From: a virus
Virus record (IMG/VR): IMGVR_UViG_3300046692_000064
Span: 1 to 47,531 of that record
Reading direction: 5' to 3' (one strand)
DNA: 47,531 bases
Part shown: positions 1,842-46,951 of the stretch, piece after piece
Numbering within the stretch: position 1 is the stretch's first letter
How the letters are laid out: each line of letters starts with the position of its first letter
Made by a program: the position numbers and the translations under genes
The notes under the pieces: generated by a model
The model's database searches: none
Told to the model about the DNA's origin: nothing
Seen by the model: only the letters and a program-made list of their open reading frames with translations

Positions 1842-1889
1842 GTGGCAGCGGTTTGCAAGCCGCGGCAGAGATAAGCGCCTGCCGGCCAC
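1842..1889 (+). ncRNA. Three-way-junction leader before the methyltransferase
   Basis: Hand folding gives a compact three-way junction: closing stem GTGGC (1842-1846) with GCCAC (1885-1889), hairpin GCGG (1848-1851) with CCGC (1860-1863), and hairpin GGCAG (1864-1868) with CTGCC (1879-1883). The second and third helices abut with no linker. It begins 6 bases after a TATAAT box and ends 34 bases before the methyltransferase ATG. There is no U-tract, so it does not look like a terminator; a leader controlling translation or mRNA stability of the methyltransferase fits better. Confidence 0.5.
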
Positions 1890-1923
1890 TCTATTTAATG
1901 CTTACCTGGCTTAAAGGGATAAA

Positions 1924-2598
1924 ATGGAAAACTTCAAAAACGGAAAGGTCAGCCTGCTAAACGGCGACTGCATGGACTATCTAAGATCGCTGCCTGATGA
2001 CGCGTTTGATTTGGCTATTGTCGATCCGCCCTATGGAATAGGTGAAAGCGGCGACAGGAACAAATCTCGCGGCAAGCTGGCGACTGCAAAAGACTACAAG
2101 GCATTTTCAGGTGGGGACAAGAGCGCTCCAGATCCGGAGTACTTTGTCGAGCTATCGCGAGTATCCAAAAACCAAATAATCTGGGGCGCAAATCATTTTG
2201 CTGACCGCTTAGTAAGCCCATCCAGCCCATGCTGGATTGTATGGGATAAGCAAACCGGAGAAAGTGATTTCGCTGACTGCGAACTGGCTTATGCCAGTTT
2301 TAAAACTGCAGTCCGTAAATTTACGTTCAGGTGGTCAGGGATGCTGCAGGGATGCATGAAGAACAAAGAGGTTCGCATCCATCCTACCCAAAAGCCGGTA
2401 AAGCTTTACGAATGGTTGCTGTCGAACTACGCAAAAGAAGGCGACCGCATCCTAGATACGCATCTCGGTAGCGGGTCTAGCGCAATTGCTGCGCACTACG
2501 CTGGATATGAGTTTGTCGGGATAGAAATGCATCCTGATTATTATGCGTCGGCTATTGATCGATTCCAGCGAGAGACATCGCAAATGTCTTTTCTGTAA
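1924..2598 (+). CDS. DNA methyltransferase, N6-adenine/N4-cytosine beta class
   Basis: The 224-residue enzyme carries the catalytic motif DPPYG at residues 34-38 and, later, the AdoMet-binding motif DTHLGSGSSA from residue 178; this order is that of beta-class methyltransferases, and DPPY favours adenine N6 methylation. HPTQKPVKLYEWLL is the typical helix before the AdoMet site. It would methylate phage DNA in the cytoplasm. No restriction enzyme is nearby, so it is an orphan enzyme, possibly protecting phage DNA from host restriction or marking DNA for packaging. It is preceded by its own -10 box and a structured leader, and its AT content is somewhat higher than the terminase genes around it, suggesting later insertion. 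Confidence 0.9.
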   Translation: MENFKNGKVSLLNGDCMDYLRSLPDDAFDLAIVDPPYGIGESGDRNKSRGKLATAKDYKAFSGGDKSAPDPEYFVELSRVSKNQIIWGANHFADRLVSPSSPCWIVWDKQTGESDFADCELAYASFKTAVRKFTFRWSGMLQGCMKNKEVRIHPTQKPVKLYEWLLSNYAKEGDRILDTHLGSGSSAIAAHYAGYEFVGIEMHPDYYASAIDRFQRETSQMSFL

Positions 2599-8342: not shown

Positions 8343-9365
8343 ATGCCATTCTCTTTGCAAGACCTGCAACAAAATGCGGGCATTGTGTTTGCTACCGGCA
8401 TCGCGCCGAGCATGCTGACCGAAGCCGACAAGGCCCGCCTGAACCGCGAGATCCGTGGCACCGCGATGGACGCCGCGCCTCTGCTCACCGCTCCAAACGC
8501 CGGCATCCTGTCGCTGTTCACCACCTACGTGGACCCTCGCGTGGTCGAGTTCTTGGTTGAGCCAATGAAGGCTGGCCAGATTTTCGGCGAGACGAAAAAA
8601 GGTTCGTGGACTGACGACTTCCTGCAATTCCCAATCGCGGAATCGACCGGCGAAACCTCGTCCTACGACGACTTCTCCGAAAACGGCATGAGCGGCACTA
8701 ACGTCAACTGGGAAACTCGTGACACCTACTACTACCAGACCATCATCGAACTGGGTGAGCGGGAAGTGGAGCGTGCTGGTGCGGCCAAGCTGGACTGGGT
8801 TTCGCGCAAGCAGATTTCTGCCGCGCTGACCCTGAACAAGTTCCAGAACAAGACCTACTTCAACGGCGTGGCTGGTCTGCGTAACTGGGGCATCCTGAAC
8901 GATCCGTCGTTGCTGGCTGGCGTGACCCTGCCGACTTGGGTGGCCGCTGGCGGTGACGTGGTGTATGCCGGAATCGCCCAGATCTACGGCGAACTGGTTG
9001 CCCAAACTGGCGGCCTGATCGACCGTGAAACCCCGATGATCCTGCTCCTGTCGCCACAGGCAGAAGCGACCTTCACCCGTACCAACCAGTACAATGTGAA
9101 CGTCAGCGATCAGATCAAGAAGAACTTCCCGAACCTGGAAGTTCAGACCGCGCCGGAGATGTCTACCCAGGCTGGCGAGGCGATCAAGCTGATCGTGAAG
9201 AACTACGAAGGCGTGGATACCGTTGAGCCGACCTTCACCGAGAAGATGCGTGTTCATCCGATGGTGCTGGGTCTGTCGTCGTGGCGTCAGAAGCGTTCTC
9301 AGGGCACCGTGGGCACGATCATCTATCGCCCGATCATGGTAGCCAGCGCATTGGTGGCAATCTAA
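8343..9365 (+). CDS. Major capsid protein (DUF2184)
   Basis: The 340-residue protein follows protease and cement genes and has the DUF2184 style: an N-terminal arm, DPRVVEFLVEPMKAGQIFGETKKGSW, then YYYQTIIELGEREVERAGAAKLDW, and a C-terminal region with STQAGEAIKLIVKNYEGVDT. It is expected to take the HK97 fold and form the capsid lattice. GGGGGCAAGCAA before the ATG gives a reasonable ribosome site. A tetraloop hairpin follows the gene. Confidence 0.88.
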   Translation: MPFSLQDLQQNAGIVFATGIAPSMLTEADKARLNREIRGTAMDAAPLLTAPNAGILSLFTTYVDPRVVEFLVEPMKAGQIFGETKKGSWTDDFLQFPIAESTGETSSYDDFSENGMSGTNVNWETRDTYYYQTIIELGEREVERAGAAKLDWVSRKQISAALTLNKFQNKTYFNGVAGLRNWGILNDPSLLAGVTLPTWVAAGGDVVYAGIAQIYGELVAQTGGLIDRETPMILLLSPQAEATFTRTNQYNVNVSDQIKKNFPNLEVQTAPEMSTQAGEAIKLIVKNYEGVDTVEPTFTEKMRVHPMVLGLSSWRQKRSQGTVGTIIYRPIMVASALVAI

Positions 9366-21049: not shown

Positions 21050-22715
21050 TTTGATCCTGACCCCATTCGGCGAAAACGCCGCGCCGGGGACTATCGACCC
21101 GATTCCAGAAACGCGCGGCCCTGGCGATGACCCGCAACAGGCGACGTGGGACGAAGGCTTCCCTCTAGTCACCATGACCCCACTGGGGGCGGGCGGCATT
21201 CCTCCGAAAGGCCAAGACTTCAACGGCGTGCTCAACGCCATCAGCGAACATACCGTGTTCACTGGTCGCGGCGGCCAATACAAGTGGTCAACTGCATACG
21301 TTACGGCCAGTGGTGGCTACTCGATTGGCGACGTTATCCAAGCCGACGACGGCCTGAACTCCTACGTCAGCCTGGTGAACGCCAACACGGCCAACTTCAA
21401 TACCACGCCAGCGGCCATCGGGGTTAGCTGGGGCCTGTATGCTGGTCGAAATACTCAGGTTCAGTCGACCGAGACCGTTTCCGGCATCGCCGAAATTGCC
21501 ACGCAAGCCGAAGTCACGACCGGCGCCGATGACGCCCGGATCGTCACGCCGGCAAAACTGCGAGGCGCGCAGGCAACCCAGGCCGAAGCCGAGGCCGGGA
21601 CTGACAACACCACGCTGATGACGCCTCTTCGTGCGCGCCAGCAGCGTGACAAAGCTGGGTTTGCCATTGATACTGGCACGGCGAACACTTACGTCTGCGC
21701 ATTCACCCCGGCCATTACTGCGCGCCTAGAGGGGCAAGTTCTGAAGTTCAAGGTGAATGCCGCCAACACGGGCGCCTCCACCCTCAACGACGGTGCGGGT
21801 GTCGTGGCCTTGGTGGGCGGCGCTCAAACCGCGCTGCAGGGCGGAGAGCTGGTTGCCAACGGTGACGCATGGGTACAGTGGAATACGTCGGTTGGCGGCG
21901 GCTCGTACATCCTGCTGTTCTGCACCGGCGCACCGGAACAAGTCGCTCCGGCCACCAAAAGCCAGCACGCAGCTCAGCTTGGTCAGCTTGGGCACGGTCA
22001 ATGCCGCCTTTCGGTGGGCAGCACGACGACGCTCCTGTTAAAGCCGTACAACGGAAATAACGTCAACGTCAATGGCGTGCCGCTGCAGCTTCCCTCGGCT
22101 GGCATCACCTACACCCTCAGCGGGCTGGCCGCCTCGACGCTTTATTACGTCTACCTGTCTGGCACGACTGCTGTGCCAGTGCTGACCGTTTCTGCCACCG
22201 GTCATAGCCAGGCGCCGAACGGCGTGGAGACAAAGACCGGCGATGTAACGCAGACGCTGGTTGGCATGGTGTACACGAACGCATCCACGCAGTTTGTGGA
22301 CTCGCTGGCATCGCGCACCTGCCTGAACTGGTTCAACAGGCGAAACCTTCCGGGTGCCAACCTAAGTAGTTCGGCATTCACATTCACCAGCACGACGTCT
22401 GTTGAAGCTTCATCAACATTACGTGCCGTCTTTCTGACTTGGGCCGATGACGGTGTTGATATATCCGCTTCTGGGTATGTAACCTCCTCTGCGCTTTCTA
22501 TCATTGGTACGCAGTTATTTCTTGACGGTGCTCAAGCTGCTCCCGCTCAACAAACAACGATTCAATCCAACGCCCAATCAGCGATCTTCTCATCTCGGGC
22601 GGTCAACTTCTATACCGAAGGGGTTCACACCGCGAGTCTATTCGTGAGCGTGCCATCTGGCGGTGCAACCGGTACGCTTCAGACTATCCAAACCGATGTC
22701 ATCGTAAGGGGGTAA
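21039..22715 (+). CDS. Tail fibre protein
   Basis: The 558-residue protein overlaps the previous gene by 11 bases. Its N-terminal part (MTPLGAGGIPPKGQDFNGVLNAISEHTVFTGRGGQYKW) is the conserved particle-binding domain of Pseudomonas-type fibres; residues 150-210 contain SGIAEIATQAEV and DDARIVTPAKL, the repeat motif of trimeric fibre shafts. After about residue 430 (22340 onward) base composition becomes more AT-rich, consistent with an exchanged receptor-binding tip. The next gene encodes its likely chaperone. Confidence 0.85.
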   Translation: MQPDLILTPFGENAAPGTIDPIPETRGPGDDPQQATWDEGFPLVTMTPLGAGGIPPKGQDFNGVLNAISEHTVFTGRGGQYKWSTAYVTASGGYSIGDVIQADDGLNSYVSLVNANTANFNTTPAAIGVSWGLYAGRNTQVQSTETVSGIAEIATQAEVTTGADDARIVTPAKLRGAQATQAEAEAGTDNTTLMTPLRARQQRDKAGFAIDTGTANTYVCAFTPAITARLEGQVLKFKVNAANTGASTLNDGAGVVALVGGAQTALQGGELVANGDAWVQWNTSVGGGSYILLFCTGAPEQVAPATKSQHAAQLGQLGHGQCRLSVGSTTTLLLKPYNGNNVNVNGVPLQLPSAGITYTLSGLAASTLYYVYLSGTTAVPVLTVSATGHSQAPNGVETKTGDVTQTLVGMVYTNASTQFVDSLASRTCLNWFNRRNLPGANLSSSAFTFTSTTSVEASSTLRAVFLTWADDGVDISASGYVTSSALSIIGTQLFLDGAQAAPAQQTTIQSNAQSAIFSSRAVNFYTEGVHTASLFVSVPSGGATGTLQTIQTDVIVRG

Positions 22716-23099: not shown

Positions 23100-24203
23100 A
23101 TGGTTAATTCTTCAGACTACCCGACATTACAAGCGGCACTGGACGCATCCCTAAACGTATTGATCCCTGCGGGGGTGTACACGGACCAACCGTTGACGTT
23201 TAGGGCTGGGCACCGCGTCACGGGCGAGGGGCGAGGCACGGTGCTCAAGGCGACGAGTGGTGGCGGTATTTTCCTCAACTGCTCGCACGCCGATAACGTA
23301 GAGCTGAGTAACCTGGCGGTGGATATCGACCCGGCGTGCGTGTCATTGGTCGGGTTGCAAGTTCAAAGTTCTACTGGTAGTCATTTCTCAAATATTGTTT
23401 TCACCAACTCTGGTCAAAGTTTCGGGGTTTTTTCGCAGAGCTGCACCGATTGTGTGTTTGATTACATCGAAGTGCCGTCAGCCAAAATTGAATGTATCCG
23501 GCACGAATACGGCATCAGGACTAAAACTCGCTATCATAAATTGTCGTCGCCCGGCGCAGATCATTGCATTCAGATCTACAAAGGTTCAAACAACGACGTG
23601 CAGTTTGGGTACGTTGAAAACGCGCCATGCTTTGGGGTCAGCTATTACGAAACAGATGGCGGTGATTGTTCTGGAAATAAAGCCTACAACACGACACTTG
23701 AAGCGTATCAAATAACCAACAGCGGCAGCGTCAGGATTCACGATAACGATGCGCGGTGGGATACTGGCAAATCCGTAGACTTTGGAATATCAATCTCTGG
23801 CGAAACTGTGTACCCACCAAATGTGGCGCCTGTAAGGTCTTATGCAAACCTCAACCAAGTCTACAACAATACGGTTAATGGTTGCGGGAAGTCTGGCATC
23901 GCCGTTGCGGGCAATGCCGTGGATAATCATGTCCACCACAACTTCATTATTAACCCTTGCGGTCTGTCAGAGGCTTTCACGGCCGGCATTGTGCTGTACG
24001 GGACATATTGCAATAGCAACTATATTGAAGGAAATGTGATCGGGTACTATGCGGCACCCTCTAAGATGCTTTACGGCATTGCTGAATGGAATTACGAGAG
24101 AGGTTACGCATCCTCTAACAGGATCGGTTGCAATAAGATAACGGGCGCCAAGGTGTCGTCGCTGTCGATACAACCAAGCACTACCGCATATCTAAACAGT
24201 TAA
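23100..24203 (+). CDS. Right-handed beta-helix protein (tailspike/depolymerase-like)
   Basis: The 367-residue protein starts TLQAALDASLNVLIPAGVYTDQPLTF, the classic entry strand of pectate-lyase-like beta-helices, and continues with short repeats rich in Asn and Gly (NVELSNLAVDID, YNNTVNGCGKSGIAVAGNAV, NYIEGNVIGYY). It likely binds or cuts a host surface polysaccharide. It has no N-terminal particle-binding domain, so it must attach through another protein or act as a free enzyme. The AT-richer composition points to recent acquisition. ATG 23100 comes 1 base after the chaperone stop. Confidence 0.8.
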   Translation: MVNSSDYPTLQAALDASLNVLIPAGVYTDQPLTFRAGHRVTGEGRGTVLKATSGGGIFLNCSHADNVELSNLAVDIDPACVSLVGLQVQSSTGSHFSNIVFTNSGQSFGVFSQSCTDCVFDYIEVPSAKIECIRHEYGIRTKTRYHKLSSPGADHCIQIYKGSNNDVQFGYVENAPCFGVSYYETDGGDCSGNKAYNTTLEAYQITNSGSVRIHDNDARWDTGKSVDFGISISGETVYPPNVAPVRSYANLNQVYNNTVNGCGKSGIAVAGNAVDNHVHHNFIINPCGLSEAFTAGIVLYGTYCNSNYIEGNVIGYYAAPSKMLYGIAEWNYERGYASSNRIGCNKITGAKVSSLSIQPSTTAYLNS

Positions 24204-24215
24204 ATGGAGAAAGCC

Positions 24216-24767
24216 ATGCCAATCACCGCGCAGCAGCTGCTACAGATCCTCCCAAATGCCGGCAAGCAAGCAGGCGTTTTTGCGTCTGCGCTGAACTTGG
24301 CCATGGAGCAATACCAGATCAGCACGCCGAAGCGCATGGCGGCATTCATCGCTCAAGTCGGGCATGAGTCCGGCCAGTTCCGCTATGTGAAGGAGCTGGG
24401 CGGCGACCAGTACCTGAGCAAGTACGACACCGGGCCACTGGCCAAACGCTTGGGCAACACGCCAGAGGCCGACGGTGACGGGCAGAAATACCGAGGGCGC
24501 GGCCTGATTCAAATCACCGGGCGCGACAACTACCTGGCGTGCAGCAAGGCCTTGTTCGGGGATAACCGACTGCTGAGTACGCCCGAGCTTTTGGAGCAAG
24601 CCGAGTGGGCCTGCAAGTCGGCGGCGTGGTTCTGGAATTCGCGCAACCTGAATGCGCTGGCGGATGTCGGGGATGAAACCGGGATATGCAAAAGAATTAA
24701 CGGCGGACTGAACGGCCTGGCCGAGCGACAGGAATTCTATGCGCGAGCGCTGAAGGTGTTGGCGTGA
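24216..24767 (+). CDS. Endolysin, GH19 chitinase/lysozyme family
   Basis: The 183-residue protein is a GH19-type muramidase: MAAFIAQVGHESGQFRYVKE (with the likely catalytic Glu in GHESGQF near residue 50), YRGRGLIQITGRDNY and an ending KRINGGLNGLAERQEFYARAL. It cuts host peptidoglycan at the end of infection after holin-mediated release; there is no signal peptide. ATG 24216 is used since GGAG (24206-24209) is then well spaced; the ATG at 24204 is too early. Confidence 0.92.
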   Translation: MPITAQQLLQILPNAGKQAGVFASALNLAMEQYQISTPKRMAAFIAQVGHESGQFRYVKELGGDQYLSKYDTGPLAKRLGNTPEADGDGQKYRGRGLIQITGRDNYLACSKALFGDNRLLSTPELLEQAEWACKSAAWFWNSRNLNALADVGDETGICKRINGGLNGLAERQEFYARALKVLA

Positions 24768-29343: not shown

Positions 29344-29718
29344 TCAGGTTTTCGATTGCTCTATATCAAGCCCCTCTAGTATTGCTTGTTGCTTTCGCTC
29401 AGCCATCCCAAGCAGATGCCGTAATGATGTCGGATCGTCGAATCGTGATTCGCTTGCATATTCGGCGAGCTCTGCACGCAAGGCGCCAAACTCGATCCCT
29501 TCATCATCTGGCATACCATAAGGTCCGACACGAAGCGTCAGATCAAGCCAGTTGAATGCCAGGTGACATCCGGCGCACCTCTTAAAGCTATATCCCTGGC
29601 CATCTGTAGCCCCCGAAAGGATCATGTACCGATGCCCTTGCTTGATGGTCCCTCTACATTCGCTACAGATGTGATCCTTGCGCGCCCTCACTCCTTTTTG
29701 CGTACTGAAGTCGCTCAT
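29344..29718 (-). CDS. Zinc-finger-like protein, hypothetical
   Basis: The 124-residue protein has a GVRARKDHICSECRGTIKQGHRYMILSGATDGQGYSFKRCAGCHLAF segment, with Cys pairs CSEC and CAGC spaced to bind a zinc ion, an arrangement like small phage or PARP-type zinc proteins. The C-terminal half is helical (LRAELAEYASESRFDDP). It overlaps the start of the upstream gene's stop by 4 bases. Function unknown. Confidence 0.65.
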   Translation of the reverse strand: MSDFSTQKGVRARKDHICSECRGTIKQGHRYMILSGATDGQGYSFKRCAGCHLAFNWLDLTLRVGPYGMPDDEGIEFGALRAELAEYASESRFDDPTSLRHLLGMAERKQQAILEGLDIEQSKT

Positions 29719-31630: not shown

Positions 31631-32731
31631 TCAGAAGTTGATAACGATATTCGGAACTTCGCCGCGAGCGATCTTCAGGACGATGGCCTTGGCCAGTTCC
31701 TCGGATATGTTCATCGACATGATTGCTTCCTTCGCGGCGCCCAAGATCTTTGACTTGTGCGCCATGTCGGCCTGTCTGGCTTTCTGCTGGCGGATGATTT
31801 CGTCCGCTGCTGCCTCTTGCCGGGCTTGCTCATCTAGTCGAGCCTGCTCAACCGCTTGCTTCTCGCGTTCGATGGCTGCAAGCCGGTCCTGCTCTGCCTT
31901 TTGCTCGGCTTCGAGCTTCTCGCGCTTTGCCTGCTCGGCGCGGCGATCTGATTCCGCAGCCTGCAGCTTCAGATCGGCTTCGCGCTTCTCGGCGGCTGCC
32001 TGGTCGTCACGGGCTTTCTGCTCTTGCGCTTCACGATCGCGCTGCGCCTTTTCCTCGGCCTCGCGGGTGGCTTTCTCCGCGGCTTCGCGGGCAATGCGGT
32101 CTTCGCTGTCCTTCTTGTCGCGGGCTTCTTTCTCTTCGCGCAGCTTGGCCAGTTCGGCCTGCTCGGCGTCGTATGCCTCACGCTTCGCCAGCGCCGCGCC
32201 AAGCGCTTCGATTGCCTTGGCCTTGGCTCGGTGCGCCTCGGCTTCGAACTCTTCCCACTGCTCGCCAACGGTGATGGCTTCGACCTTGGCGATGCGGTCA
32301 GCCAGATCCTCGGCGGTGATGCCTTCCAGCGCTTCGGCGGATAGTTTCAGGCGGGCGATGGCGTCATTGTGCTTATCAACCCGCGCATCCTCGGCGGCCT
32401 GCCAGTCGTCCAGCGGCTTGCGCACTTCATCCTTCCACGCGTCGAGCAGGTCGCGCATCCGCTTACGCTCGGCATCGATCTTCTTCGGCACATCCTTCAG
32501 CTCGGCGACCAGCTCCTTGCCGATGTTGTCCAGTGCCGTTTTCGAGCGGGCAACGCTGTGGGCGATAGAGGCGATTGCCTGACGACCCTTGACGGTGGTG
32601 ATATCTGGTACAAACCCATCGATCTCTTCGCGGATCTTCGCCAGGTACGGATCAAGGCCGCTGGCCGCACTGAACACTGACAAGGCGTTTTCTTTCGATG
32701 GAACAACTGCAATTTCTGTTGCTTCTGACAT
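31631..32731 (-). CDS. DUF1351-like coiled-coil protein
   Basis: The 366-residue protein starts at ATG 32731 after GAAGGGAA; the longer ORF to 32833 lies inside a structured leader and is rejected. The N-terminal part has GLDPYLAKIREEIDGFVPDITTVKGRQAIASIAHSVARSKTAL and DAWKDEVRKPLDDWQAAED, as in the DUF1351 family that accompanies ERF/RecT genes. Residues 180-330 are an extremely charged coiled coil (many Ala, Glu, Lys, Arg). It may act as a scaffold or regulator of the recombination machinery. It is the first gene of the recombination operon. Confidence 0.8.
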   Translation of the reverse strand: MSEATEIAVVPSKENALSVFSAASGLDPYLAKIREEIDGFVPDITTVKGRQAIASIAHSVARSKTALDNIGKELVAELKDVPKKIDAERKRMRDLLDAWKDEVRKPLDDWQAAEDARVDKHNDAIARLKLSAEALEGITAEDLADRIAKVEAITVGEQWEEFEAEAHRAKAKAIEALGAALAKREAYDAEQAELAKLREEKEARDKKDSEDRIAREAAEKATREAEEKAQRDREAQEQKARDDQAAAEKREADLKLQAAESDRRAEQAKREKLEAEQKAEQDRLAAIEREKQAVEQARLDEQARQEAAADEIIRQQKARQADMAHKSKILGAAKEAIMSMNISEELAKAIVLKIARGEVPNIVINF

Positions 32732-32746
32732 TTCCCTTCTCCCACG

Positions 32747-32924
32747 AAAAAGCGCTTTGGGGTTGCCCGGTGGAACTCTGTGAATAACCTGGATCGACGG
32801 CTTGTCGGTCAGACACAGAACGGGCAACTCCAAAACGCTTTGATAGCCGTCGATCCTGATAATTTGCTTTAGCGTTCCACGGCCTTGGCGAGCTGAATAA
32901 TACCCTAAAACTTAACCTCAACAA
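32747..32924 (-). promoter_or_regulatory. Attenuator-like leader with promoter (copy E)
   Basis: Reading leftward: TTGTTG (32924-32919) and TATTAT (32902-32897) with 16-base spacing; a segment GGATCGACGGC (32856-32846); after 4 bases the long hairpin 32841-32821 with 32769-32749 (21 pairs, one G-U, one A-C mismatch); inner stem TCTGTG (32819-32814) with CACAGA (32782-32777); the 20-plus-base loop contains GCCGTCGATCC (32801-32791), a perfect 11-bp complement of the upstream segment. The hairpin ends in 5 Ts and then GTGGG ... GGGAAATG into the DUF1351 start. The two pairings cannot coexist, so this looks like a terminator/antiterminator switch. Confidence 0.65.
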
Positions 32925-41609: not shown

Positions 41610-41737
41610 GCAAGCGAAACTGGACCGTGCGCGCATCCGGCAAGTCGTTTCAGATGGTCGTTCTGGAGGCCGCCATCGATCACGCCGAGGCTCTACGCTC
41701 TGCCAGATTGATTTGGCCACATGCAGAGGTTTCGTGA
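41606..41737 (+). CDS. 43-residue hypothetical protein
   Basis: The product begins MSKRNWTVRASGKSFQMVVL and ends RLIWPHAEVS. ATG 41606 overlaps the previous stop. It is a small coupled gene. No family recognised. Confidence 0.5.
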   Translation: MSKRNWTVRASGKSFQMVVLEAAIDHAEALRSARLIWPHAEVS

Positions 41738-41740
41738 AAA

Positions 41741-41901
41741 ACCACTAGCCAAGCAAGTTAACCGCCAGTATGATTTGCGAACAGCCTTGGCGGGCTTTCA
41801 ATTCAGTAAGGCTAGAGCGATGCAGTGCATGTACTGAACATGTCCGCCGATTCCAGAAATGGAAACTGCATCGCTCTAGCCTTTTTTGTGGGGCAATAGA
41901 A
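41741..41901 (+). promoter_or_regulatory. Attenuator-like leader with promoter (copy A)
   Basis: CTAGCC (41745-41750) and TATGAT (41769-41774) lie 18 bases apart, followed by TTGCGAAC. The hairpin 41808-41826 with 41865-41883 is a perfect 19-bp stem ending in six Ts (41882-41887). Inside are CATGT (41828-41832) with ACATG (41838-41842) and TTCCA (41851-41855), loop GAAA, TGGAA (41860-41864). The segment TCCGCCGA (41843-41850) between them can pair with TTGGCGGG (41787-41794) upstream of the hairpin (8 pairs, two G-U). Then GTGGGGCAATAGAAATG leads into the 41902 gene. Confidence 0.65.
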
Positions 41902-42078
41902 ATGGATAAGAAAACGATACGCGAGGCTGTTGCTGGGGCGATCTGGAGCGTTCGCCGCGAGAGCGAAGATCGATGCGACATGGATCTTGAGGATATGGGG
42001 CTCGATCATTCAGTATGGGATGAGGCGGACGCTGTGATTGACGCGCTAGACCTGATTGGTGTTGAGGTGAAGCCATGA
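41902..42078 (+). CDS. 58-residue acidic hypothetical protein
   Basis: The product starts MDKKTIREAVAGAIWSVRR and has an acidic centre with CDMDLEDMGLDHSVWDEADAVIDALD. ATG 41902 is chosen because the longer ORF runs through the structured leader. It is the first gene after copy A of the leader family, so its expression is likely controlled by it. Function unknown. Confidence 0.6.
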   Translation: MDKKTIREAVAGAIWSVRRESEDRCDMDLEDMGLDHSVWDEADAVIDALDLIGVEVKP

Positions 42079-42263
42079 ACCGCGCCAGCCCGGTACAACT
42101 CAGGAAATCCCTTGAAGTCGCCCACGCCTTCGCCAAGGCTGGCATCAGTTTCGTCGTCATGCCGGTAGTTGATGAGGCCGACCATGCGAATCTGGCGGGG
42201 CAGGCCATAGAGCGATTGGAGCGGATCGCGGCCATAGTTGAATCGAAGGAGCGGATGGCATGA
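42075..42263 (+). CDS. 62-residue hypothetical protein
   Basis: It reads NRASPVQLRKSLEVAHAFAKAGISFVVMPVVDEAD and ends RIAAIVESKERMA. It overlaps both neighbours. A short helix-strand-helix pattern is seen but no family. Confidence 0.55.
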   Translation: MNRASPVQLRKSLEVAHAFAKAGISFVVMPVVDEADHANLAGQAIERLERIAAIVESKERMA

Positions 42264-42520
42264 GCGACAAATCGCGTAAGGATTTTGAGGCGTGGGCGAT
42301 GACTACAGGGTTTGAGGACCACCACTTTGCATTGCGCGATGATGGTGAATACGCAAATTACGATGTCCGCCGCCTCTTTGCGCCGTGGCAAGCAAGCCGC
42401 GCCGCTATCGAGGTGGAGATGCCGAAAAGCACAGAGTTCAGTCGTGACGATTATCCAGGCTACGTCATTGACCGATGCGGGAGAATGATCGCCGCACAAG
42501 GCCTGAAGGTGAAAGCATGA
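42260..42520 (+). CDS. 86-residue hypothetical protein
   Basis: The product has KSRKDFEAWAMTTGFEDHHFALRDDGEYANYDVRRLFAPWQASRAAIE, a FExW...Y...W.A pattern shared with the 40672 and 41062 genes, and an IDRCGRMIAAQGLKVKA end. Such small FEAW proteins are common in early operons of Pseudomonas phages. Function unknown. Confidence 0.65.
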   Translation: MSDKSRKDFEAWAMTTGFEDHHFALRDDGEYANYDVRRLFAPWQASRAAIEVEMPKSTEFSRDDYPGYVIDRCGRMIAAQGLKVKA

Positions 42521-43155
42521 ACGATATGATCTGCCGTAAATCTATGACCCGCTGCCTTACGCCGGGAATGTGCTCCCCGCATGGCGGATGCAAAGATCCA
42601 GCTACAGACAGATTGCGTGAAGTGGTCGAGCAGCAGAAAGCCCTGATCGCCTCCCTGCGCAACGACCTGCAGGAAGCCATAGCGATTGACTGCGACGACG
42701 ACGCCAAAGACGCCTGCGCCGAAGTTGAGCGCACTGGCACGCCGGGTAGCGTGATCCGCGAAATGAACGATGAGCTGGCGGATCTGCGCGCCAGGCTAGC
42801 GGAGCGGGATGATCTGCTGCGCGATATCAAGGATGCGCCAGGCGGAAGTTCGTTCAAGCGCCATATTGAAGCCGCCCTATCAGCCAGCGCAGAGCCGAGC
42901 GCGCCGGTTGAGTGCGACTGGGAGCCGCTTACTTCGCCGGGGCAAGTCCAGCTAGGTGACTGGTTGAGCTTTAGGGTTTCTGGCTCGCATATCTGTGCTA
43001 GAGCAAGCCTGATAATTGACCCTGGAACTGATCGCGAAGAGATCGTCTACAACGTCAAGAAGAACCACTATTTCATCACGTCGATGGCGATTGATGGCAC
43101 AAGCACGCACAAAGGCGTATTGGTGTCAAAGTCAACGCAGGAGCCAACCCAATGA
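42517..43155 (+). CDS. Hypothetical protein with coiled coil
   Basis: The 212-residue protein starts at ATG 42517 in an ATGA overlap. It has a Cys-rich N-terminus (MICRKSMTRCLTPGMCSPHGGCKDP), a coiled coil (residues 30-110: REVVEQQKALIASLRNDLQEA, ELADLRARLAERDDLLRDI) and a C-terminal strand domain (WEPLTSPGQVQLGDWLSFRVSGSHICARASLII). No family recognised. Confidence 0.6.
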   Translation: MNDMICRKSMTRCLTPGMCSPHGGCKDPATDRLREVVEQQKALIASLRNDLQEAIAIDCDDDAKDACAEVERTGTPGSVIREMNDELADLRARLAERDDLLRDIKDAPGGSSFKRHIEAALSASAEPSAPVECDWEPLTSPGQVQLGDWLSFRVSGSHICARASLIIDPGTDREEIVYNVKKNHYFITSMAIDGTSTHKGVLVSKSTQEPTQ

Positions 43156-43553
43156 GCCAATCATGCGAAAAGCACGCCGCCCTTCCAGTAGTCGGTCATT
43201 CCCCGTGCGCAGGGTTCGAGATAGAAAGACTGAAGGCCGAGGTTGAGCGCTATCGAAAGTACGGCTGCGATACCTGCGACGGTTCAGGCCACTTGCACCG
43301 GGCCGATGGTGAGTATTTCGGAGCATGCACGTCTTGCGGCGCGTATGAGCTGGAGCAGGCCAAGCGCGAATCTGAAGGTCTGCGGAAGGATGCTGAGCGT
43401 TATCGTCATCTGAGAGCATGCAACGGCGGATCACTGGTCATCACTCAGCTGTCATTTGACAAGGATGAGGAGCGAGAACTGGTCGAGGAAGAAGCAGATC
43501 AGGTAATCGACGCCGCCATGAGCAAAGACCCATTGGCCAATCCAGGCCAGTAG
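43152..43553 (+). CDS. Hypothetical protein with Cys clusters and coiled coil
   Basis: The 133-residue protein has SPCAGFEIERLKAEVERYRKYGCDTCDGSGHLH and FGACTSCGAYELEQAKRE; CDTCDGSG and CTSCG resemble the DnaJ-like zinc knuckle. The middle is a coiled coil. It ends VIDAAMSKDPLANPGQ. The last bases overlap the -35 region of copy B of the leader family. Confidence 0.6.
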   Translation: MSQSCEKHAALPVVGHSPCAGFEIERLKAEVERYRKYGCDTCDGSGHLHRADGEYFGACTSCGAYELEQAKRESEGLRKDAERYRHLRACNGGSLVITQLSFDKDEERELVEEEADQVIDAAMSKDPLANPGQ

Positions 43554-43715
43554 CGGTATGATGTGCGAACGGGAGTCGAAACCCGGCTGTAATGGATCGA
43601 GGGTTAACAAAGGTTTTGATTTGCACTGTTCCTGTTGGGTTGAGTTCCCCCTCGATCCAGACCCATCAGGATTTCGACCAGTGCAAATCAAAGCCTTTTT
43701 TTGTGGGCGTGAGAA
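43529..43715 (+). promoter_or_regulatory. Attenuator-like leader with promoter (copy B)
   Basis: TTGGCC (43533-43538) and TATGAT (43557-43562) lie 18 bases apart, followed by GTGCGAAC and a small hairpin. GGATCGAGGG (43594-43603) precedes a 20-bp hairpin, 43609-43628 with 43679-43698 (one G-U), which runs into seven Ts. Inside, CCTG and TGGGT (43631-43640) pair with ACCCA and CAGG (43661-43670), and the loop contains CCCTCGATCC (43649-43658), a perfect 10-bp complement to the upstream segment. With only 5 linker bases the two pairings exclude each other. GTGGGCGTGAGAAATG then leads into the antirepressor. Confidence 0.7.
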
Positions 43716-44474
43716 ATGAATTTATTGGTTGAAAGATCGGCAAGCATGACAAGTCTTGAGCTGGTCATGCTTATCAACAATCACAGAAAGGCTGAGGCTC
43801 GCAAGGTTGCGCGTCTTTTCCCGTCGAAGGGTTTTGCTCAGCTTGAGCACTCCGACTTTATGAAAAAAGTTGTCGAGGTTCTCGGGGAGAGTGCCGGAAA
43901 TTTTTCCGACACCTACATCCACCAGCAGAACGGACAAACTTACCCGTCCTATCGCTTCCCGAAGCGTGAAGCCTGCCTGATGGCAATGTCGTACAGCTAC
44001 GATCTGCAGGCGGCAGTATTTGACAGAATGACCGAGCTTGAAGAGGTGAAGGCGCCCGCACTGCCTAGGTCATTCGCCGACGCACTGCGCCTTGCTGCAG
44101 ATCAGGCTGAGCAGATCGAGCAGCAATCCCAGCAATTGGCTATCGCTGCGCCAAAGGTTGAATTCGTAGACCGTTACGTCGAATCGTCCGGCCTCAAGGG
44201 CTTCCGCCAAGTCGCCAAGCTGCTGGGCATCAAAGAGAACCTATTCCGGGCCTTCCTGGTCGAAAACAAGATTCAATACCAGATCAGTGGCGAGTGGGTT
44301 CCCTACGCCAACCACATCGACGCCGGCCGGTTTGAGGTGAAGACCGGGACTGCCGAGCACAACGATCACGCATTTACATCTGCCAAGTTTACCCCGCGAG
44401 GCATTGAATACGTCGCCCGCCTGCTGCGCGACTCAAAGAAAATAGAACCTGAAAAGGCCCTGAGTCATGGCTAA
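43716..44474 (+). CDS. Rha/KilAC antirepressor
   Basis: The 252-residue protein has an N-terminal Rha domain (LELVMLINNHRKAEARKVA, FMKKVVEVLGE, DTYIHQQNGQTYPSYRFPKREACLMAMSYSYDLQAAVFDRM), a helical linker, and a KilAC domain (KVEFVDRYVESSGLKGFRQVAKLLGIKENLFRAFLVENK, then FTPRGIEYVARLL). Such proteins bind DNA or a repressor and control the lytic switch. ATG 43716 has a weak ribosome site; ATG 43746 is possible. It follows copy B of the leader family, so its synthesis may be set by transcription attenuation. Confidence 0.88.
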   Translation: MNLLVERSASMTSLELVMLINNHRKAEARKVARLFPSKGFAQLEHSDFMKKVVEVLGESAGNFSDTYIHQQNGQTYPSYRFPKREACLMAMSYSYDLQAAVFDRMTELEEVKAPALPRSFADALRLAADQAEQIEQQSQQLAIAAPKVEFVDRYVESSGLKGFRQVAKLLGIKENLFRAFLVENKIQYQISGEWVPYANHIDAGRFEVKTGTAEHNDHAFTSAKFTPRGIEYVARLLRDSKKIEPEKALSHG

Positions 44475-46375: not shown

Positions 46376-46951
46376 GTGCCTAAACTTGTATACGGAGTAG
46401 GAATCAACGACGTTCCCGGCTCGACAAGGAAGCGGAACCCGATCTATATCGCGTGGTATGGGATGCTCACGCGGTGCTTTTCTGAAGGGTACAAAGAAAA
46501 ATATCCTACTTATCGGGGCTGCACTATTGACCCTGAATGGCTTAGGTATTCTACGTTTTCAGAGTGGGCAGCGCCTAGAATTGGCGAGGGAATGTGCCTA
46601 GACAAGGACATTCTGCTGTCTGGAAATAAACATTACTCCCCTGAGCTTTGCGCGTTCGTGCCAAAGTGGCTTAACTCCTTCATATCAAACATGAAGCAAA
46701 AGGATCGCGGCGGACTGCCTATGGGCGTCCAGCAATACGGGAATCGGTTTATTGCGAGATTCGGATGTCGAGGAACAGAAATATATCTCGGGTCTTTCAA
46801 GGATGCGCAGTCAGCGCATGTTGAGTACATGGCGACGCGCAAGGTTGAAGTGGCCAAGCGGATAGATACCTACAGCAAGATGCCTGGCGCCATTGCCGAG
46901 ATTGCTGCCGCCCTTGTACAATTGTTCGAAGCAGATGAATGCCAAGGCTGA
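46376..46951 (+). CDS. AP2/HNH-associated DNA-binding protein
   Basis: The 191-residue protein starts at GTG 46376 after AGGA. Its N-terminal half has IAWYGMLTRCFSEGYKEKYPTYRGCTIDPEWLRYSTFSEWA, and the C-terminal part PMGVQQYGNRFIARFGCRGTEIYLGSFKDAQSAHVEYMATRKVEV is an AP2-like DNA-binding domain. This pair is typical of phage proteins related to HNH homing endonucleases but I see no HNH residues, so it may only bind DNA. It is a mobile-type gene, and its AT-richer composition fits late entry. Confidence 0.75.
   Translation: MPKLVYGVGINDVPGSTRKRNPIYIAWYGMLTRCFSEGYKEKYPTYRGCTIDPEWLRYSTFSEWAAPRIGEGMCLDKDILLSGNKHYSPELCAFVPKWLNSFISNMKQKDRGGLPMGVQQYGNRFIARFGCRGTEIYLGSFKDAQSAHVEYMATRKVEVAKRIDTYSKMPGAIAEIAAALVQLFEADECQG

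Follow-up and report, generated by a model that had tools for sequence, protein, structure and literature searches.

What is encoded directly upstream of the open reading frame at 41902-42078, where a long hairpin ending in a run of Ts encloses two smaller hairpins, and does this arrangement recur elsewhere as an element with a role of its own? The window, meaning the whole stretch of DNA analyzed, was a virus record of 47,531 bases, and all evidence on the leader RNA was sequence-based. Three copies of the element were found in it, designated A, B, and E, the last on the minus strand.

In copy A (plus strand), the long stem k was the perfect 19-bp hairpin of the original prediction (5' arm 41808-41826, 3' arm 41865-41883), and its last two bases are also the first two of the six Ts at 41882-41887. 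The 3' arm together with the U-run (41865-41887) resembles an intrinsic terminator. Both expected inner hairpins were present: l (41828-41842, CATG-TACTGAA-CATG) and m (41851-41864, TTCCA-GAAA-TGGAA), the latter capped by a GNRA loop. Upstream lies a 5' hairpin, hp1 (41783-41796, AGC-CTTGGCGG-GCT). The proposed pairing of TCCGCCGA (41843-41850) with TTGGCGGG (41787-41794) was recovered with all eight pairs, six Watson-Crick and two G-U; it comprises the loop segment i of hp1 (TTGGCGG, 41787-41793) and the tail segment i' (CCGCCGA, 41844-41850), which are joined by one G-U pair in the window. A second pairing had gone unnoticed, between the linker segment j (TTCAGTA, 41802-41808) and the loop of hairpin l, designated j' (TACTGAA, 41832-41838). 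The last A of j also belongs to stem k. A spacer with GTGGGG (41888-41902) leads up to the start of the open reading frame, which encodes 58 aa, has its ATG 14 nt after the U-run, and belongs to no Pfam or PHROG family.

The 161-nt RNA of copy A folded at -63.7 kcal/mol (z -4.79), and none of 200 shuffled sequences was equally good. Shuffling that left hp1 and k unchanged produced the two pairings together in a fraction of 0.0003 of 20,000 cases. A terminator scan, restricted to loops of 3-8, raised no flag at the site of copy A. A sigma-70-like promoter was recognized at 41746-41774 (TAGCCA-17 nt-TATGAT, the latter hexamer at 41769-41774), with 9 of 12 matches and a score reached by none of 254 control positions. 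Because this promoter-like sequence is placed directly upstream, the RNA of copy A would start near 41781 and end at 41887, giving about 107 nt; these ends are inferred without transcript data, and 41781-41887 was taken as the family member.

The same promoter accounts for a 15-nt box that had been described as shared by copies A and B. The box exists, with two exact occurrences, and it is the promoter-like -10 region, probably outside the RNA. A search allowing up to three mismatches found 2 occurrences against 3.9 expected by chance, so the loose box alone means little. The motif CCA.T.GCCAA, also reported as common to both copies, was confirmed at the same 26-nt distance from the box in A and B.

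All copies were built from the same parts in the same order: hp1 with an 8-nt loop containing i, linker j, the 5' arm of k, hairpin l with j' in its loop, tail i', the 3' arm of k, and a U-run. The two pairings are reciprocal, in that the loop of hp1 pairs with the tail inside the stem and the loop of l pairs with the linker, and both cross the terminator stem. Copy B occupies 43533-43707 (+), upstream of an antirepressor open reading frame at 43716-44474 with a KilAC domain (PF03374). It has a promoter-like sequence TTGGCC/TGGCCA-18/17-TATGAT (43533/34-43562), hp1 at 43571-43584 with i (GTCGAAA) at 43575-43581, j at 43593-43603, j' at 43649-43659, k at 43609-43628 and 43679-43698, and i' at 43672-43678, followed by the U-run. 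Copy E lies at 32742-32893 (-), with i GTGGAAC, i' GTTCCAC, and j GGATCGACGGCT, upstream of an open reading frame whose ATG is at 32731 (-).

Three further types, C, D, and F, were recognized in other phages. The extra hairpin m, between i' and k', occurs in A and C. In A, B, C, E, and F, stem k measured about 19-21 bp, and in several of these it contained mismatches; a U-run was present in every family seen except D. With hp1 and k fixed, both pairings arose by chance at a frequency of 0.00025 for C and 0 for B in 20,000 shuffles; for D the linker boundary used left j out, and i/i' alone gave 0.015. No bases are shared between helices in B and E, one or two are shared at the j/k boundary in A and C (a single A in copy A of the window and in L132), and about six, judged by eye, in D. 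In the contig carrying copy D (L067, 12177-12295, minus strand), the fold is kept without a U-run and leads directly into GGAG and ATG; the gene behind it looks, by eye, like a Rha/Ant-type regulator, and the case is perhaps a natural loss of the terminator.

The distribution of the element was examined with sequence patterns, models, and a structure descriptor. The pattern CTTGGCGG-N-GTCCGCCAA-N-CTTTTT was found in at least 120 stretches of viral contigs, where well under one would be expected by chance (a rough estimate, not a tool output). At least 119 A-type matches were found again by script in newly fetched loci, near-identical contigs included. The A-type set was chosen by its exact core among the matches listed, and from these 70 representatives under 92% identity were taken. 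The three pairs of hp1, not demanded by the search, formed in all 70, each of them realized by four or five of the standard pair types. As the placement of k and l was optimized for pairing in this set, only the hp1 count is unbiased.

Two models without pseudoknots, R1 and R2, linked the types to each other. The A-type model R2 detected copy C, absent from its build, at 43 bits (E 3e-8), and did not report B, D, E, or F. R1 detected D (28 bits) and F (33 bits), neither of which it contained. In 12 further records, R2 found only the copy that had brought each record in. The structure descriptor gave 27 matches in six phages, of which 18 were kept and 9 without a U-run were set aside; one of the latter was the opposite strand of copy E. 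At a stricter setting it gave 2 matches in 203,661 shuffled bases, and some matches in real loci were also taken for chance. By eye, 5 of 22 stretches were dropped for lack of hp1, i', or a U-run (L069, L077, L079, L083, L084), and 8 of 17 for lack of the downstream element (L009-L013, L016, L018, L019).

Searches farther afield yielded little. A scan of contigs with the promoter pattern returned 26 stretches from scattered hosts, none of them Pseudomonas, which were judged chance from their titles without individual inspection. Among 369 Gammaproteobacteria genomes, the B-type promoter pattern occurred in none and the A-type core pattern in two, both judged chance from the letters. RsmY, sought as a marker of a Pseudomonas genome, scored above the cut-off in none of 21 genomes.

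Covariation was evaluated in three alignments: 15 distinct B/E-type RNAs; five A-type sequences, including those of phages AH02 and Lbo240-yong2; and 40 A-type rows, consisting of 37 of the 70 representatives plus the window, AH02, and Lbo240-yong2, with 33 representatives left out for size. In the B/E-type alignment, with both crossing helices, 94.5% of 780 cells were paired and 29 of 52 pairs had changed on both sides. The covariation score was 0.511 compared to 0.179 after shuffling, and slid controls reached at most 48.1% paired. One of five measures, the number of further pair types, was not above chance (51 vs. 48.5 in shuffled alignments, 115 of 500 as high). Helix l was paired in 85.5% of cells. 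Helix i/i' was paired throughout (100%), with four of its seven pairs changed on both sides and i taking the forms GTCGAAA, GTCGTAA, GTAGTAG, GTGGAAC, GTTAGAC, GTGAGAC, and GTGAGAA.

In the five A-type sequences, 93.9% of 214 cells were paired and 20 of 44 pairs showed double changes. For stem k alone, the values were 97.8% of cells and 12 of 19 pairs changed on both sides; arm changes without compensation, which would have refuted the original prediction, were absent. The 40-row alignment gave 92.0% of 1734 cells paired, double changes in 35 of 44 pairs, and a covariation score of 0.558 vs. 0.160 shuffled, with 0 of 500 shuffles as high. Hairpin m was paired in 93.9% of its cells, and all five of its pairs were doubly changed. 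Helix j, as aligned, falls out of register where the loop is shifted or shorter, and was paired in 69.0% of cells (five sequences) and 65.4% (40 rows). When j/j' was anchored at its constant end in the 40 rows, 208 of 240 cells paired, compared to a shuffled mean of 149 and a maximum of 164; seven of the 40 rows still paired at four or fewer of the six positions.

Compensatory changes thus support the predicted helices hp1, j, l, m, and k in the 40 A-type sequences and hp1, i, l, and k in the 15 B/E-type RNAs. The covariation evidence for i/i' comes from the B/E-type alignment only, because the search fixes i/i' in the A-type set, and that for j comes from the 40 A-type rows, because the search nearly fixes j in the B/E-type set. 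It had been proposed that structure and not sequence is kept, and this was borne out on two levels: the stems of A, B, and E differ while pairing stays, as do those of copy A and its homologues in AH02 and Lbo240-yong2. Copies A, B, and E are accordingly regarded as one RNA class with a shared, predicted double pseudoknot, found well beyond the phage of the window.

Promoter-like sequences accompanied the fold. Within the window type and its relatives, each of 15 elements had one 7-13 nt upstream of hp1 (sought at 5-16 nt); 14 of them outscored every control position, and for the remaining one 2.8% of control positions scored as high. Promoters of the A-type were weaker, in that for 44 of the 70 representatives from the matches listed no more than 5% of control positions scored as high, the median over all 70 being 2.6%. 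Among the 69 of these representatives that have an open reading frame, the start codon lay 8-15 nt after the U-run in 57. For the window type the distance was mostly 12-15 nt, with exceptions of 20 nt (L070) and 39 nt (L081). Some script-called reading frames start at a codon earlier than the likely one, and their spacing was read from the printed DNA.

The genes behind the RNA were diverse, including antirepressor (PF03374), DUF1376, NUMOD4-HNH, Lin1244_N, and YqaJ; ten were checked, of which four met the curated cut-off, one fell below it, and five had no match. Others resembled GIY-YIG or DUF551 proteins by eye. Two copies, L078 5881-6027 (-) and L073 4522-4675 (-), are immediately followed by genes judged by eye to resemble those of HNH-type endonucleases; genes of this sort, recurrent behind the leader, may ride on it. 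A window open reading frame without a Pfam match, at 46376-46951 (+), looks by eye like the one behind the leader in L073 and L182.

Comparison of related phages showed different modules at corresponding positions. Copy A is almost unchanged in these phages, while the adjoining genes differ, as judged from viral contigs searched for exact matches to promoter and core. The sole recurrent stem-loop difference was TCCGCCGA, present in the window and L007, vs. TCCGCCAA in the other six relatives, which converts the G-U into an A-U pair with TTGGCGG. Accordingly, six of the seven relatives carry CCGCCAA, with seven Watson-Crick pairs to TTGGCGG, and L007 carries CCGCCGA, as does the window. A promoter of this kind was present in 9 of 9 records (the window and eight others). 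Behind the second promoter, the copy varied among phages between B and C, with D in a single case. All five relatives fetched in full carried A plus another copy on the right, either B or C. Four of these five had a left-operon copy, which was E in three cases and F in one; on the left side of the fifth, G007, none was detected, and G001 had a further left copy at 8350. The left operon is headed by E in the window and by F in G005, two different sequences of one architecture, and both precede the same gene family, as judged by eye from N-terminal sequences. Related phages therefore have similar sets of copies, and in some of them the same promoter is followed, or the same gene preceded, by an unrelated sequence.

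The early genes of the window include those for an antirepressor, NinB, NinG, NinX, a DUF1376 protein, and a DnaC-type protein, and 17 of 20 records similar to short stretches of its second half were Pseudomonas phages. Named carriers were AH02 (a P. koreensis phage), Lbo240-yong2, and Orisa03 from Pseudomonas syringae 7C, detected by R1 at 111 bits; Orisa01 and Orisa02, of the same host, were identified by identical sequence. The A-type copies of AH02 (29520-29626) and Lbo240-yong2 (24166-24269, +) are both divergent. BLAST returned no significant match for window copies A and B among named phages, or for B among plasmids; F had no match in phages, and L081 had only a 31-nt match (E 0.06). 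Queries with other relatives did reach named phages.

Some observations concern these carriers themselves. In AH02 (L108, MZ501271), a left copy at 22545-22710 (-), scoring 34 bits with R1, overlaps the annotated 42-aa CDS AH02_28 and is followed by an HNH homing endonuclease gene; because of this overlap, AH02_28 is probably not a gene. Lbo240-yong2 (L109, OP828577), deposited as a Leptolyngbya phage, has an A-type copy before its recombination operon, where the window has E, and this copy together with the similarity of the early region makes the deposited host worth checking. In Orimi01 (P. syringae 7C), an F-like copy was read from the letters; neither the structure descriptor nor R1 reported it.

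The reading favored here, with a probability of roughly 0.5, is that of a self-contained cis-acting leader module of the attenuator type that controls early phage genes. Fold, promoter-like and terminator-like sequence, start-codon position, and the presence of different modules at corresponding positions of related phages can be read from the DNA itself; transcription, termination, and their regulation are inferred, without transcript, termination, or read-through data. A sigma-70-type promoter would start an RNA of about 105-135 nt at the base of hp1. The loop of hp1 would pair with the tail of the second hairpin, and the loop of the second hairpin with the tail of the first, giving the double pseudoknot. 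The stem of about 19-21 bp with its U-run would act as an intrinsic terminator, mostly 8-15 nt before the start codon. Most transcripts would therefore end there as a compact small RNA, leaving expression of the gene to read-through. In contrast to classical attenuators, few bases are contested between the helices; as an inferred step, however, j/j' and i/i' might form before the 3' arm emerges, enclosing the 5' arm of k, so that a stem of nearly two turns then closes slowly, as a geometric switch.

A cis role is favored because different alleles stand before the same gene and the distance to the start codon is narrow. No single signal is implied, since the downstream genes differ widely, and termination may not be the core function, since D keeps the fold without a U-run. 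These data suggest that phages control early genes through an unrecognized folded-RNA means. The further proposal, of a new class of regulatory RNA in which loop-tail pairings lock the 5' arm, RNA topology decides early-gene read-through, and modules are traded while the fold is held, is put forward only tentatively and is unlikely to hold in full.

The best surviving alternative is a free-standing gene for a trans-acting small RNA, with host or phage targets or proteins and with the following gene incidental. A trans role is favored by two points, because copy A is near-invariant among relatives of the window while the gene behind it varies, and because the sequence has all the parts of a transcription unit, from promoter through folded RNA to terminator. 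In B and E, moreover, the helices can coexist without shared bases, unlike in a classical switch. However, the short and narrow distance from U-run to start codon, kept in most members with unrelated genes, would be needless for an independent gene; D lacks the U-run, and no target was found, although none was sought. This explanation is possible and rather doubtful.

An immunity or incompatibility device comparable to P4 CI RNA or P1 c4, in which the loops of a resident RNA would pair with an incoming nascent leader and stop its early operons, was considered quite improbable. It would fit the differing sequences behind one promoter (B, C, and D) or before one gene (E and F) with conserved architecture, and the position of copies before antirepressor, recombination, and replication genes. 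Ten distinct i segments occurred among 18 hand-picked elements, and in 0 of 280 cross comparisons did one pair fully with the i' of another type. On the other hand, the A-type set shows no variation in i/i' and the B/E set hardly any in j/j', both partly by design of the search, which would leave specificity to one helix. Intramolecular pairing should also beat pairing in trans, and there are no superinfection data.

RNase III shows a preference for about two turns of helix, and the stem might be a cleavage site of about 20 bp, with the U-run and purine-rich spacer as a ribosome landing site in a translation leader and termination of minor importance. The nearly constant stem length of A, B, C, E, and F (about 19-21 bp), the start codon immediately downstream, and the long stem retained by D without a U-run agree with this. 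The pseudoknot pairing and the common U-run directly after the stem would remain unexplained, and the proposal was given very little credence. A type III toxin-antitoxin system, with a pseudoknotted antitoxin RNA, a leaky terminator, and a toxin gene, shares the order of parts as far as described in the accessible part of PMC12373285, but is barely conceivable here, as no one gene consistently follows the RNA (antirepressor, DUF1376, NUMOD4-HNH, YqaJ, and others) and each element has a single fold, with no tandem antitoxin repeats visible in the alignments (no repeat program was run). A self-cleaving ribozyme was dropped solely for lack of an Rfam match, a riboswitch for one metabolite because the downstream genes are unrelated, and a put-like antitermination RNA was considered and also dropped.

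Nearest in anatomy to the favored leader module are IsrK, P4 CI RNA, c4, and the type III antitoxin RNAs, and where testable no defining feature of these is fully met. In the Gifsy-1 isrK-orf45-anrP locus, a phage promoter yields a terminated short RNA with partial read-through to an antirepressor operon, according to the accessible part of PMC4825925. By sequence the anatomy of the leader is similar, with promoter-like and terminator-like sequence and a start codon, from which transcription and read-through are only inferred; copy B too precedes an antirepressor gene. In contrast, the leader RNA has no Rfam match where it was compared and varied genes behind it, and the word pseudoknot does not appear in the main text of PMC4825925 as available. 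The same source, as far as accessible, describes P4 CI RNA with seqA/seqC as leader-derived, with complementary leader segments and premature termination before replication genes. That RNA is processed and antisense, whereas the leader RNA has an intrinsic-terminator-like end and intramolecular pairings covarying as one fold. The c4 antisense RNA of P1/P7 (RF01695) is a small phage RNA near an antirepressor gene (accessible parts of PMC2864571 and PMC12197685), whereas the leader RNA precedes many other genes; pairing with a ribosome site was neither found nor sought. Type III antitoxin RNAs and AbiF RCd22 likewise combine structured RNA, terminator, and gene in what is available of PMC12373285; the leader RNA differs in having no conserved toxin gene. 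Finally, the ESAS of cluster K mycobacteriophages are inverted repeats just before the start codons of varied genes. Each is an imperfect repeat of 17 bp with a short, variable spacer, and its sequence is conserved, as far as the available part of PMC3203893 states, whereas the leader RNA conserves the fold instead.

No recognizable description of the class was found in the literature, judged from titles and the starts of abstracts, with subscription papers mostly out of reach, which is no proof of unpublished status. The class is common in viral contigs, with at least 120 A-type stretches, and sits at early control points. It is invisible in the annotation seen, in which one copy in AH02 is spanned by a predicted 42-aa CDS. 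If early genes are indeed gated by RNA folding, this would add an RNA layer to phage timing, perhaps to immunity, and would provide small, naturally diversified pseudoknots for work on structure and co-transcriptional folding.

Rfam 15 gave 0 matches at the gathering threshold over the whole window, and in 41700-43760, searched up to E 5, two weak matches, neither over an element. Ten A-type loci gave 0 matches, the remaining A-type loci being outside the scope, and the c4 model (RF01695) had no match over elements in the Rfam-scanned sequences. Seven loci with other members gave only tRNA and int-alpA, both away from the elements. The int-alpA RNA (RF02996) lies at 1886-1952 (-) of L081, a contig in which the leader RNA is found as well, and scored just above the gathering score.
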